Part shown: one piece after another, positions 28,305 through 61,908 of the stretch | How the letters are laid out: each line of letters opens with the position of its first letter | Position numbering within the stretch: position 1 is the stretch's first letter | Assembly (NCBI GenBank): GCA_017305665.1 | Contig: JAFKKH010000009.1 | Coordinates: 124,001 to 188,000, forward strand | DNA from: Hyphomicrobiales bacterium | GTDB lineage: Bacteria; Pseudomonadota; Alphaproteobacteria; Rhizobiales; Xanthobacteraceae | Direction of reading: 5' to 3' | DNA length: 64,000 bases | Program-made: the position numbers and the translations under genes | The notes under the pieces: generated by a model | Seen by the model: the letters and a program-made list of their open reading frames with translations, nothing else | What the model was told of the DNA's origin: nothing | Database searches by the model: none

Positions 28305-28354
28305 GTCCCGGGTCTGCAGCGCGGCACCGAGGTGCCGCGCTGCAGACCCGGGAC
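28305..28354. repeat. Perfect palindrome, 23-bp arms and 4-base loop, between gap and pgk
   Basis: Two exactly complementary 23-base arms (beginning GTCCCGGGTCTGCAGCGCGG) enclose CGAG. A hairpin this long and GC-rich just 10 bp after the gap stop could terminate or protect the gap transcript. There is no T tract, and the composition resembles an intergenic repeat. Confidence 0.8.
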
Positions 28355-40681: not shown

Positions 40682-40780
40682 CGTCATTCCGGGACAAGCT
40701 TCCTGGCGTGGGCCCGGAATCCATATTCCCGGCGGTGGTTATGGATTCCGGGCTCGCGCTTCGCGCGCACCGGAATGACG
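40682..40780. repeat. Dispersed palindromic repeat, CGTCATTCCGG...CCGGAATGACG, inside the MotA/OmpA-like operon
   Basis: A full copy of the repeat with perfect 11-bp outer arms lies in the 153-bp gap between the channel gene and its OmpA-like partner. It ends about 10 bp before the GGAGG of the second gene, so it can form a hairpin within the shared transcript. Confidence 0.85.
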
Positions 40781-58880: not shown

Positions 58881-59714
58881 TCACTGCGCCGGAGCGCGGA
58901 CCTGCGCCCAGCGCTGCAGTCGATTGACCGCGAAGATGATCAGGAATGCTGCGACCAGCATCACCACCGCGATGGCGGTCGCATCGGCGTAGCGGAACTC
59001 GGACAGCCGGATCACGATCAGCAGCGGCGCGATCTCGGACACGTTCGGCAGGTTGCCGGCAATGAAGATCACCGAGCCGTATTCGCCGACCGCCCGCGCG
59101 AACGCCAGCGCGAAACCGGTCAGCACGGCCGGCATCAGGCTCGGCAGGATGACTTTCGAGACGATGTGCCAGCGGTTGGCGCCGAGGCTTGCCGCGGCCT
59201 CCTCGATTTCGCTGTCGAGATCGAGCAGCACCGGCTGCACCGTGCGCACCACGAACGGGATTCCGATGAACACCATCGCGACGAAAATGCCGATCGGCGT
59301 GAACGCGACCTTGATGCCGAGTTCGGCCAGCGGCGCGCCGAGCCAGCCCTTCTGCGCAAACAGCGACGTCAGCGCCACGCCCGCTACCGCGGTCGGCAAG
59401 GCAAAAGGAATATCGACGATGGCATCGAACAGGCGGCGGCCGGGGAAACGATAGCGGACCAGCGCCCACACCACGATCATGCCCATCACCAGATTGACGA
59501 GCGCGGCGCAGAACGCCAGCCCGAACGAAATCTTCAGCGCATTCAACGTGCGGCGGCTGGTAAGGATGGCCCAGAATTGATCCGGGCCAAGCTCCATCGT
59601 CTTCAGGAACAGGCCGGCGAGCGGGATCAGCACGATGATCGACAGCCACGTCAGCGTCAGTCCCATGGTGAGACCGAAGCCCGGCAGCGTATTTCGTCGC
59701 AATCCCCCACTCAC
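58881..59714 (-). CDS. cysT: Sulfate ABC transporter permease CysT (CysU)
   Basis: A 277-residue permease: GFGLTMGLTLTWLSIIVLIPLAGLFLKT, VDIPFALPTAVAGVALTSLFAQKGWLG, and the EAA loop EIEEAAASLGANRWHIVSKVILPSLMPAVLTGFALAFARAVGEYGSVIFIAGNLP. I chose GTG 59714 because GAGG lies six bases upstream and the frame beyond it reads into hairpin DNA. That ribosome binding site lies only a few bases from the end of hairpin A. Confidence 0.94.
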   Translation of the reverse strand: MSGGLRRNTLPGFGLTMGLTLTWLSIIVLIPLAGLFLKTMELGPDQFWAILTSRRTLNALKISFGLAFCAALVNLVMGMIVVWALVRYRFPGRRLFDAIVDIPFALPTAVAGVALTSLFAQKGWLGAPLAELGIKVAFTPIGIFVAMVFIGIPFVVRTVQPVLLDLDSEIEEAAASLGANRWHIVSKVILPSLMPAVLTGFALAFARAVGEYGSVIFIAGNLPNVSEIAPLLIVIRLSEFRYADATAIAVVMLVAAFLIIFAVNRLQRWAQVRAPAQ

Positions 59715-59727
59715 AATGGTCCTCGCG

Positions 59728-59803
59728 CTAGTGATCCGATTCCAACATTTGCGTCCCGTTCCGGAAAGTGCTCGCGCAAATGTTGGAATCAAAGGATCAC
59801 TAG
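59728..59803. repeat. Hairpin A of the TAGTG...CACTA family, just upstream of cysT
   Basis: CTAGTGATCC with GATTCCAACATTTGCG, and the matching CGCAAATGTTGGAATC with GGATCACTAG, form a stem of about 25 bp with a three-base bulge and a loop of about 20 bases. It ends 4 bp before the cysT ribosome binding site. Confidence 0.85.
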
Positions 59804-59816
59804 AAAATATAAGCTC

Positions 59817-59895
59817 CGAGTGGAGCCAGGAATTTGACATTCGCCTCTCTGACTCGCCGCAACGTGTATAGCGAATGTCAAATTCGCTCCACTCG
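59817..59895. repeat. Hairpin B, same architecture, just downstream of the sulfate-binding protein gene
   Basis: CGAGTGGAGC with AATTTGACATTCGC, and the matching GCGAATGTCAAATT with GCTCCACTCG. The arms are complementary to each other but differ in sequence from hairpins A, C and D. It starts 14 bp after the sbp stop on the minus strand. Confidence 0.8.
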
Positions 59896-59908
59896 TGTTC
59901 CAGCGAAA

Positions 59909-60898
59909 TCAGTTCTTGTAAATCTGGTCGAAAACGCCGCCTTCGCTGAAGTGTTCCTTCTGCGCCTTGGTCCAGCCACCGAATACATCGTCGATCGTGA
60001 ACAGATCGACCTTCGCGAAGGATTTTTCATACGTCTTTGCGATTTCAGGATCGCGTGGACGATATGAATTCTTCGCGGCGATTTCCTGGCCTTCCTTGGT
60101 GTACCAGTATTTCAGGTATGCCTCTGCGACAGCACGGGTGCCCTTTTTATCGGCAACGCCATCAACGACGGCCACCGGCGGCTCGGCGAGAATCGACAGC
60201 GGCGGTGCAACGATCTCGAACTTGTCCTTGCCGAATTCCCGTTGCGCGAGAAAGGCTTCGTTCTCCCACGCCAGCAGCACGTCGCCCACGCCACGCTCGA
60301 CGAACGTGACTGTCGCCCCGCGCGCACCGGTATCCAGCACCGGCACGTTCTTGTAGAGATCTGCGACAAATTGCTTCGCCTTGTCGGCAGAGCCGTACTT
60401 CTTCAGCGCATAGCCCCACGCCGCCAGGTAGTTCCAGCGCGCGCCGCCCGAGGTCTTCGGGTTCGGCGTGATGACCGAAACGCCGGGCTTGATCAGATCG
60501 TCCCAATCCTTGATGCCTTTCGGATTGCCCTTGCGCACCAGGAAGACGATGGTCGAGGTGTAGGGCGACGAATTCAGCGGCAGCCGCTTCTGCCAGTCCG
60601 GCTTGATCAGGCCTTTCGCAACGATGGCATCGATGTCGTAGGCAAGCGCGAGCGTCACGACATCTGCCTGCAGGCCGTCGATCACCGCACGCGCCTGCGA
60701 GCCGGAGCCGCCGTGCGATTGCTTGATCTCGACGCTCTTGCCGGTTTCCTTCTGATAGGCTGCGGCGAACGCCTTGTTGAAATCGACATAGAGCTCGCGC
60801 GTCGGATCATAGGAAACGTTGAGCAACGAGATGTCCGCGGCGAATGCCGATGTCGTCCAGATCAGCGTGGCCGCAACGGCAAGAACGCGATGAAACAT
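59909..60898 (-). CDS. sbp: Sulfate ABC transporter substrate-binding protein
   Basis: A 329-residue periplasmic protein with a signal peptide (cleavage after TSAFA, residue 20). [64 protein letters not shown] is the classic sulfate-binding N-lobe. [20 protein letters not shown] and the C-terminal [16 protein letters not shown] complete the family. It precedes cysT-cysW-cysA with two hairpins between. Confidence 0.96.
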
Positions 60899-61023
60899 TT
60901 TTTATCTCCATACGATTCCGCAACGTGATGGTTGCCGAGAACGTACGAACAAAACTGTTGAAGTGGCGCGGCGAAGTCAACGAAACCGCTTTTCAATGTT
61001 TGCAGCGGCGCAGCGGCGTTTTG

Positions 61024-61100
61024 CTAGTGTGGTGGTTCAGAAGTTCGCTCATTTTCTCCGCGAGTCCGTCTAGCGAACTTCTGAACCAAAACCACACTAG
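61024..61100. repeat. Hairpin C of the TAGTG...CACTA family, upstream of sbp
   Basis: CTAGTGTGGTGGTTCAG with AAGTTCGCT, and AGCGAACTT with CTGAACC...CCACACTAG. The stem is about 25 bp and the loop about 20 bases. Confidence 0.88.
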
Positions 61101-61113
61101 AATTTCAGGATTG

Positions 61114-61189
61114 CTAGTGTCCCTTTGATTCCGAAGTTCGCATCAAGGGGCGCGGCAAAGACATGCGAACTTCGGAATCGGGACACTAG
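61114..61189. repeat. Hairpin D of the TAGTG...CACTA family, overlapping the cysH stop codon
   Basis: CTAGTGTCCC with GATTCCGAAGTTCGCAT, and ATGCGAACTTCGGAATC with GGGACACTAG. It lies 13 bp from hairpin C. Its terminal CTAG supplies the TAG stop of cysH on the minus strand. Confidence 0.9.
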
Positions 61190-61908
61190 GAGACCTTCAT
61201 CGTATGGATGCCGCATTCCGTCTTGCCTTTTCCGCGCCAGCGGCCGGCGCGCGCATCCTCGTTCGACTCGGCGCGGCTCGTACACGGCATGCAGCCGACC
61301 GAACGGAAGCCGGACGCCACCAGCGGATGCGGCGGCAGTTTTGCGGATGCATAGATCGCCGCGATATCCTGCGGCGTGACATTGGCGAACGGATTGAACT
61401 TCAACCGCGCGCCATCGTCCTCGACCACCCGAATCTCGGCGCGCTGACCGCCCTGAAAGCGCTTGCGCCCGTTGATCCAGGCATCGAAGGATTTAAGCGC
61501 GCGTGCCAGCGGCTCCACTTTCCGGATGCGGCAGCAGGCATCGGGATCGGTGAACCATAACTCGCGATCCGGATCCTCGCGCTTCAGCGTCTCTTCCGAA
61601 GGCTGAATCGAACGAACATCCCGAAGGCCGAGCGCGGCAATCAGCGTGTCGCGATAGGCCAGCGTTTCCTCGAACAGCCATCCGGTATCGAGAAAGATCA
61701 CGGGAATGGCGGGATCGACGTCCGCCATGACCTTCAACAGCGCAGCCGACTCCGTTCCGAACGACGACACCAGCGCCAGCCGATCGCGACCGACCGCGCG
61801 CAATGCCGAAGCGATCACCTCTCCGGGCGACGCCTCGCGCAGCGCGTCATTCAACGCAGCCGCGGATGGCAACTCGGCATCTGTCGTTATTCGGGCCAGC
61901 TGAGCCAT
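61186..61908 (-). CDS. cysH: Thioredoxin-dependent adenylyl-sulfate (APS) reductase
   Basis: A 240-residue CysH. LALVSSFGTESAALLKV is the nucleotide-binding loop. The 4Fe-4S cysteines C125, C126, C206 and C209 (DACCRIRKVEPL and VGCMPC) mark the APS-specific type rather than PAPS reductase. The catalytic Cys is C232 in ECGIH. It reduces APS to sulfite. It lies 5 bp after the DUF934 gene; its TAG stop is formed by the end of hairpin D. Confidence 0.95.
   Translation of the reverse strand: MAQLARITTDAELPSAAALNDALREASPGEVIASALRAVGRDRLALVSSFGTESAALLKVMADVDPAIPVIFLDTGWLFEETLAYRDTLIAALGLRDVRSIQPSEETLKREDPDRELWFTDPDACCRIRKVEPLARALKSFDAWINGRKRFQGGQRAEIRVVEDDGARLKFNPFANVTPQDIAAIYASAKLPPHPLVASGFRSVGCMPCTSRAESNEDARAGRWRGKGKTECGIHTMKVS

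Follow-up and report, generated by a model that had tools for sequence, protein, structure and literature searches.

Paired hairpins in an alphaproteobacterial sulfate operon as probable copies of an IS630-mobilized MITE of the CIR type

In the window, i.e. the whole analyzed stretch of 64,000 nucleotides from a Hyphomicrobiales bacterium (contig JAFKKH010000009.1, positions 124,001 to 188,000), four hairpins occupy two gaps of a sulfate operon and form two composites of about 167 bp (166-168 bp). With high probability, each of these pairs is a copy of an IS630-mobilized MITE of the CIR type that has jumped into the operon. The composites are short, multi-copy and bounded by terminal inverted repeats, with no transposase gene inside them, and a mobile IS630-type MITE is very likely what they represent. 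No evidence was found for a host function at the two operon sites.

The hairpins A (59728-59803, plus strand), B (59817-59895, minus strand), C (61024-61100, plus strand) and D (61114-61189, minus strand) are present where the first-pass annotation had placed them. As it also claimed, three of them (A, C and D) start with CTAGTG and end with CACTAG; B has CGAGTG and CACTCG instead. The exact inner arms measure 16, 15, 17 and 17 bp, and the loops 21, 26, 22 and 19 bases (A, B, C and D, respectively). Folded as single-stranded DNA, each sequence forms one hairpin, with z values of -9.4 (A), -7.9 (B), -9.3 (C) and -9.8 (D) and none of 200 shuffles as good. An Rfam search returned miRNA models only, with scores well under the gathering thresholds. 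Within the window, five centres have exact 15-bp arms and a loop of 10-30 bases, as compared to none in each of 20 Markov shuffles, and these five would be the four hairpins plus a palindrome at 28305. The latter (28305-28354) is a near-perfect 24-bp palindrome with a 2-base loop, GTCCCGGGTCTGCAGCGCGGCACC/GGTGCCGCGCTGCAGACCCGGGAC. A second, repeated palindrome, consisting of GCCCGGAATCCATA, 14 bases and TATGGATTCCGGGC, occurs in two places in the genome, namely at 40712-40753 of the window and at 2474-2515 of locus L021, and could be a REP-type family.

Within each composite the hairpins are inverted around a 13-base spacer (59804-59816 and 61101-61113), and each hairpin has a 3-base one-sided bulge that faces the spacer: AAA on the 3' side in A and C, and TTT (D) or CAG (B) on the 5' side. 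Composite 1 (59728-59895), which reads BA on the minus strand, belongs to a subfamily with the ends TAGTGG...ACATTCGC (A/B), and composite 2 (61024-61189, plus strand, CD) to a subfamily with the ends TAGTGT...GAAGTTCGC (C/D). Composite 2 is bounded by outer arms that form an imperfect inverted repeat, with 72% identity over 39 nt. A and D are the ends with GANTC at position 11 and are matched by the single-hairpin covariance model R1, while B and C are the partner ends, with arms free of GANTC and with GACTC (B) or GAGTC (C) in the loop.

Both composites are intergenic. The operon runs on the minus strand in the order cysH, composite 2 (as D, C), sulfate-binding protein gene, composite 1 (as B, A), cysT, cysW and cysA. 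The cysH gene (61186-61908, minus strand), encoding phosphoadenylyl-sulfate reductase (NCBIfam NF002537, above cut-off), has its stop codon within hairpin D, and the gene for the sulfate ABC transporter substrate-binding protein (59909-60898, minus strand; NF008022 and TIGR00971, above cut-off) lies between the two composites. In the case of cysT (58881-59840, minus strand), the TIGR02139 match starts at residue 52 of the listed open reading frame, whose start at 59840 is inside hairpin B; the true start is probably near 59716. Automatic annotation of this reading frame could add a false N-terminus built of the repeat.

Eight relatives of the same genus were searched, and both insertions were missing in all seven genomes in which the sulfate locus was recovered. 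At the composite 2 site, the empty sequence ...CTA-CG(A/G)A... of the seven relatives aligns with the filled sequence CTA[GTGTGG...GACAC]TAG, revealing a duplication of TA at the TA of the cysH stop codon, where TAG is restored by the first base of the element. The two copies of the duplicated TA are at 61025-61026 and at 61187-61188, the latter within the cysH stop codon TAG (61186-61188, minus strand). At the composite 1 site the insertion is likewise missing in the relatives, with flanks so diverged that the target is illegible. In G002, one of the relatives, a separate composite of the TAGTGG type sits in this cysH gap, some 75 bp away from the place of composite 2. Loci L262 (G000) and L322 (G006) have an intergenic site in common, at about 1218-1388, that is occupied by different subfamilies in the two species, TAGTGT-type in one and TAGTGG-type in the other, which can be read either as one target reused or as a replacement. 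Composites or parts of them also occur end to end with one CTAG in common (L109 at 4379, L120 at 26, L169 at 1662, L176 at 1499 and L323 at about 1402). No transposase was seen by eye among the open reading frames listed between two adjacent composites in L009. Out of 204 gene ends directed at a composite, 125 lie before it, 50 at the terminal TAG, 28 inside, and one gene reads through. This count replaces a smaller one (46 of 133) that overlooked reading frames ending deep in the element. An insertion at the TA of a stop codon would spare the gene, because the element starts with GTG and so rebuilds TAG.

The family is well represented in the genome itself. The pattern GATTCNNANNTTYGC gave 45 arms, and model R1 gave 128 rows at E<=0.01, equal to at least 73 distinct hairpins by hand count in 5.0 Mb, a minimum since the best 150 of 1972 first-look candidates were scored. 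These hairpins make up 26 pairs and 21 unpaired ones, and the strand that scores better is plus for the first and minus for the second hairpin in every one of the 26 pairs. Some of the unpaired hairpins (L018, L023, L025, L274 and L275) appear by eye to be hybrids, with the outer arm of one hairpin joined to the outer arm of the other. Beyond this genome, R1 matches were found in 64 out of 119 genomes of the same family (up to 40 candidates scored per genome) and in 10 out of 299 genomes of a phylum-wide sample, all ten of the same order (up to 16 candidates scored). A scan of named genomes found at least 118 stretches with the composite family; among the 80 matches listed were Bradyrhizobium, Nitrobacter, Afipia, Brucella, Mesorhizobium, Hyphomicrobium, Asticcacaulis, Xanthobacteraceae, Sphingomonadales and others. 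The hairpin family is widespread in Alphaproteobacteria, with a spacer of 12-14 bases in 172 of 173 composites. Single hairpins at L267 1253-1331, L329 1219-1297 and L271 1231-1305, starting with CTAGTACCGC or similar, perhaps constitute a third subfamily, to be compared with the ISRj1-type IS630 ends, which start with CTAGTACC. Plasmids and phages were considered as carriers and set aside: the CD composite had no match among plasmid records, and the BA composite matched 3 of 72,556 plasmid records, at 71-72% identity, and no phage record. The first-pass annotation had named a mobile palindromic element family as one possibility, and the dispersed copies, the empty sites and the TA duplication at one site all bear this out.

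The ends of the composites point to IS630-family transposases of related bacteria. In the genome itself, a search for DDE_3 (IS630, PF13358) was negative, and no relatives of the L217 or A2 transposases were found at the cut-offs used, so the copies are either relics, or their helper has been lost or was missed in the 47-contig draft. PF13358 was matched in seven of nine genomes of the genus, in six of them above cut-off. The 20 IS630 loci fetched from the genus comprise eight with TAGAGC ends, 11 without ends in the scan, and L217 from G008, an element of 1150 bp with a 376-aa product and the ends CTAGTGGATGGAATCTAACACTTGG and CTAGTGGATCGCGTCTGACATTTGAATCC. Relatives of the L217 transposase occur in 25 of the 119 family genomes (E<=1e-30) and include L236, L237 and L238, with ends that closely resemble the D and C arms; the transposases of all four have DDE_3 and helix-turn-helix domains above cut-off.

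The closest likeness was seen in L236 and L237 (372 aa), with the ends CTAGTGTCCCGAGTCAYAAGTTCGC and CTAGTGTCCTGAACCAGAAGTTCGC: 17-18 of the 21 bases beyond CTAGTG match the hairpin arm, and none of about 2120 interior windows in each element is as good. The ends of L217, L228 and L229 as well as L238 match at 14-17 of 21. For L217, L228 and L229, one end reaches 16 of 21 (0 of 1998 interior windows as good) and the other 14-15; the GANTC-bearing end of L217 (14 of 21, with 15 of 1998 interior windows as good) and the second end of L228 (14-15 of 21) are not significant when taken alone. The genus groups with TAGAGC ends match at 9-11 of 21, which is no better than their interiors. Altogether, 8 of the 20 IS630 elements scored have at least one end above all interior windows, two of them both ends, and 12 have none. 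Each MITE subfamily thus has a look-alike IS630 subgroup, L236 and L237 being of the C/D kind and L217 and L228 of the A/B kind, although not all IS630 elements show such a likeness. The association across genomes is weak, as the repeat is found in 17 of 25 family genomes with the IS and in 47 of 94 without it. The end arm was not repeated as a hairpin in any of six IS elements checked (in L228 there is just a 7-bp palindrome, at 23-41), and descent from the IS alone therefore leaves the mirrored inner arms unaccounted for. R1 likewise found no hairpin when run on 17 of the 20 genus IS630 loci.

A mechanism can be proposed in which A+B and C+D would each represent a DNA transposon of about 167 bp that is non-autonomous (a MITE) and whose two ends would derive from the unlike ends of an IS630-family (Tc1/mariner-type) IS. 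A and D would correspond to the IS end with GANTC at position 11, and B and C to the other IS end. Each end would then have been joined to its own reverse complement, turning it into a hairpin; each subfamily resembles the ends of a separate IS630 subgroup. An IS630-type transposase acting in trans would excise the element and insert it at TA, preferably in CTAG, with TA duplicated. IS630-family elements are described as inserting at TA and duplicating it (PMC2170065), and a title cited in the same paper has an IS630 composite favouring the TA in CTAG. We infer that such transposases move the elements and that the hairpin matters for transposition.

The compensatory changes highlighted in the first-pass annotation proved to be genuine and strong. 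In 124 hairpins, from 62 composites picked for diversity after filters on length and ends had reduced 159 distinct composites to 122, 24 of 27 pairs vary on both sides. Of the cells, 94.1% are paired, as compared to 76.3% when shuffled, and 661 are two-sided, as compared to 232. The covariation score is 0.499, against 0.180 when shuffled and at most 0.120 with the partner slid by 1-3 columns. One outer-stem pair illustrates this well, occurring as UA (30), AU (28), GC (27) and CG (24). Most of the named-genome loci were collected with a pattern in which some bases of the A/D inner arm are fixed, and the pairing is accordingly inflated at the fixed bases; the outer stems, the B/C hairpins and five arm positions were left free by the pattern. 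The first-pass annotation had given only recent identical copies, without an excess of compensatory changes, as the outcome speaking against it, and this was not the picture obtained.

Strong covariation by itself need not mean host selection on RNA structure. Host-selected RNA or DNA hairpins that tune the operon (by way of mRNA ends, attenuation or polarity), with compensatory changes reflecting that function, would agree with the two-sided covariation and with two copies sitting between co-directional genes of one operon, but such selection is improbable here. Both insertions are missing in the seven relatives with the locus, and the gene context of the 123 composites with both sides called (of 199) is mixed, with 77 co-directional, 27 divergent and 19 convergent cases. 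In seven insertions common to G007 and G008, moreover, substitutions were found at 19 of 578 arm positions, 10 of 312 loop and spacer positions and 170 of 3528 flank positions, i.e. arms change as fast as loops (p 1.0) and slightly, not significantly, slower than flanks (p 0.11). None of the 19 arm changes is compensated, a comparison of low power at about 5% divergence, where double changes are rare anyway. An apparent conservation of the arms (13/622, as compared to 18/281 in loops and 168/3512 in flanks, with p 0.002 and p 0.001, respectively) was rejected as a bias, arising because the arms had been set by folding the sequence of one species, with mismatched pairs counted as loop; the difference is gone with the position-defined arms used above. 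On the transcribed strand, G.U mismatches slightly outnumber A.C mismatches (69 and 54, hairpins with more than eight mismatches dropped; 30 and 18 in a smaller earlier set), but this excess is not significant (p 0.21), so selection at the RNA level was not detected. The suggestion that a hairpin, whether of DNA or RNA, is under selection is therefore not supported for the individual sites. As one-sided changes are not purged relative to loops, the covariation stems most likely from the history of moving lineages, the fold being kept in the moving lineage and not detectably by the host at each site.

Two other readings concern how the palindromes are maintained and moved. Arm-to-arm copying during replication or transposition, through template switching or quasi-palindrome correction, might keep the arms alike with no selection on the fold and with the same mobility. 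Wobble intermediates are indeed few (one-sided changes in 43 of 3321 cells, summed over pairs), and structure-oriented G.U and A.C mismatches are similar in number (66 and 80). However, at 18 of the 19 arm differences between the G007 and G008 copies, one species has a Watson-Crick pair and the other has none (direction unpolarised), so mismatches do persist at fixed sites, and we hold this copying to be possible, with the balance tilted against it. A REPIN unit consists of two palindromes in inverted orientation, and its likeness to the composites extends to the one-sided bulge and the short spacer; REPs are, in addition, known in Bradyrhizobium and Rhodopseudomonas (PMC3733652). The composites are nevertheless very improbable as REP or REPIN elements moved by a RAYT (Y1) transposase. 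The RAYT-type gene that the first-pass annotation proposed to look for elsewhere in the genome was not recovered, a Y1_Tnp search of the one genome being negative, and the evidence favours the IS630-family (DDE) transposases of relatives, a different class. The hairpin units are also larger, 76-79 bp with loops of 19-26 bases as against REPs described as 20-40 bp, the ends are CTAG and not GTAG or CGTC tags, and TA is duplicated. The IS630-mobilized MITE remains the preferred reading.

GANTC is more than two-fold depleted in the window (150 sites, 345 expected), as would be expected of a CcrM host, and the four hairpins (308 bp) hold six. GATTC lies exactly at arm position 11 in the left arms of A (59738-59742, partner GAATC at 59786-59790) and D (61127-61131, partner GAATC at 61175-61179), and the loop sites of B and C are at 59851 and 61062. 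GANTC is the site of CcrM (PMC2229807). Among 78 composites not picked with a GATTC pattern, some of which were found with a model trained on GATTC-rich copies, 62 have a hairpin with GANTC at position 11 (53 GATTC and 12 GAATC sites). Of the B/C loops, 30 of 57 contain GANTC (4.8 expected) in a set gathered without selection for GATTC, and 20 of 107 (8.6 expected) in the set selected for it; the A/D loops contain it in 1 of 57 and 3 of 107 cases, respectively. The position-11 placement of this cell-cycle methylation site recurs in the putative partner elements: of the 22 IS630 elements with CTAG-type ends (24 minus L353 and L363, whose ends are of another type), 19 show it in one or both ends, the misses being L244, L255 and L340, and in seven elements the other end has GANTC at position 24. 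With copies from 23 plasmid loci added (four of them, L368, L372, L378 and L382, without readable IS ends), position-11 GANTC was found in 29 of 33 alphaproteobacterial elements as compared to 1 of 11 others (Fisher p 4e-6, kinship ignored and near-copies included). In a tree, this contrast rests on few independent changes, namely an alphaproteobacterial clade beside a beta-/gammaproteobacterial clade, plus the pair L242-L374; a seven-row long-branch group, apparently read in a wrong frame, was set aside and two short proteins were omitted, the remaining clades being used.

Dam sites tie the transposition of IS10 and IS50 to the hemimethylated state after the fork. By analogy, CcrM methylation of the element end may have a role. 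The CcrM sites of CIR-type repeats in Alphaproteobacteria would in that case act as methylation switches in transposon ends. The IS630 transposons and the two-hairpin MITEs would then keep GANTC 11 bases inside one end, tying transposition to the post-replication hemimethylated state, and a MITE with four related arms would be a distinct non-autonomous kind whose ends co-evolve with IS630 subgroups; we put this forward tentatively, and methylation-gated transposition as such is plausible, at well short of an even chance. Alternatively, GANTC in the ends may be just a transposase binding site, unrelated to CcrM methylation, which comes close to an even chance. A terminal repeat is a likely place of transposase binding, and the Streptomyces element L371 has GAGTC at position 11 of both ends, which speaks against a pure CcrM link. 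A mere binding site agrees less well with the freedom of the N (A 8, C 7, T 2 and G 2 in the 19 IS630 elements), with the GAGTT found in its place at both ends of six beta- and gammaproteobacterial relatives (L364-L367, L369 and L370), or with the contrast between alphaproteobacterial and other elements given above. A literature search, conducted mostly outside subscription journals, returned no link between the repeat and IS630, nor between CcrM and transposition.

Among known systems, the RUP of pneumococcus, with IS630-Spn1, is similar in being a short repeat with a TA target and ends like those of an IS630-family IS (PMC2229807), but it is 107 bp long, forms one stem from its two ends and belongs to Firmicutes, and no DNA motif like GANTC is reported for it. 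IS870, ISAr1 and ISRj1 (names taken from record annotation) share the CTAG ends and the GANTC at position 11 of one end, and their transposases are 69%, 70% and 43% identical to that of L217, respectively; these are autonomous elements of 1.1-1.2 kb, unlike the composites. The Bru-RS1 and Bru-RS2 repeats of Brucella are palindromic and intergenic in a related genus, and the composite family itself was found in Brucella daejeonensis, B. haematophila and B. cytisi (L038, L046, L072, L089, L091 and L093). As compared by description, Bru-RS1 and Bru-RS2 are 103-106 bp long (PMC10800456, PMC3163539) and differ in this from the composites of about 167 bp.

The closest known relatives are the CIR repeats, the Caulobacter CcrM-associated intergenic repeats of Chen and Shapiro 2003 (via PMC2229807). 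As described there, CIR repeats (Caulobacter, Brucella) and the present composites consist of two stem-loops and a linker, have TA termini, are mostly intergenic and are alphaproteobacterial. GANTC is conserved in CIR and lies at the terminal loop of one of the two stem-loops (PMC2229807), where both window composites have it as well; across the family, the loop GANTC occurs in about half of the unpicked set and a fifth of the picked set. The differences are the length, about 110 bp in CIR (PMC2229807) as compared to about 167 bp here, and the GANTC present here also in both arms of the other hairpin. On the basis of these descriptions (PMC2229807), membership of the CIR family is likely. In PMC2229807, no TIR is given for CIR, target duplication is left open and the mechanism of mobility is said to need more information. 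A possible answer is hereby offered to two questions of that review, namely how CIR-type repeats move and where their CcrM site originates, and a descriptive repeat family becomes a testable system with defined ends, candidate transposases, a methylation site and a methyltransferase.
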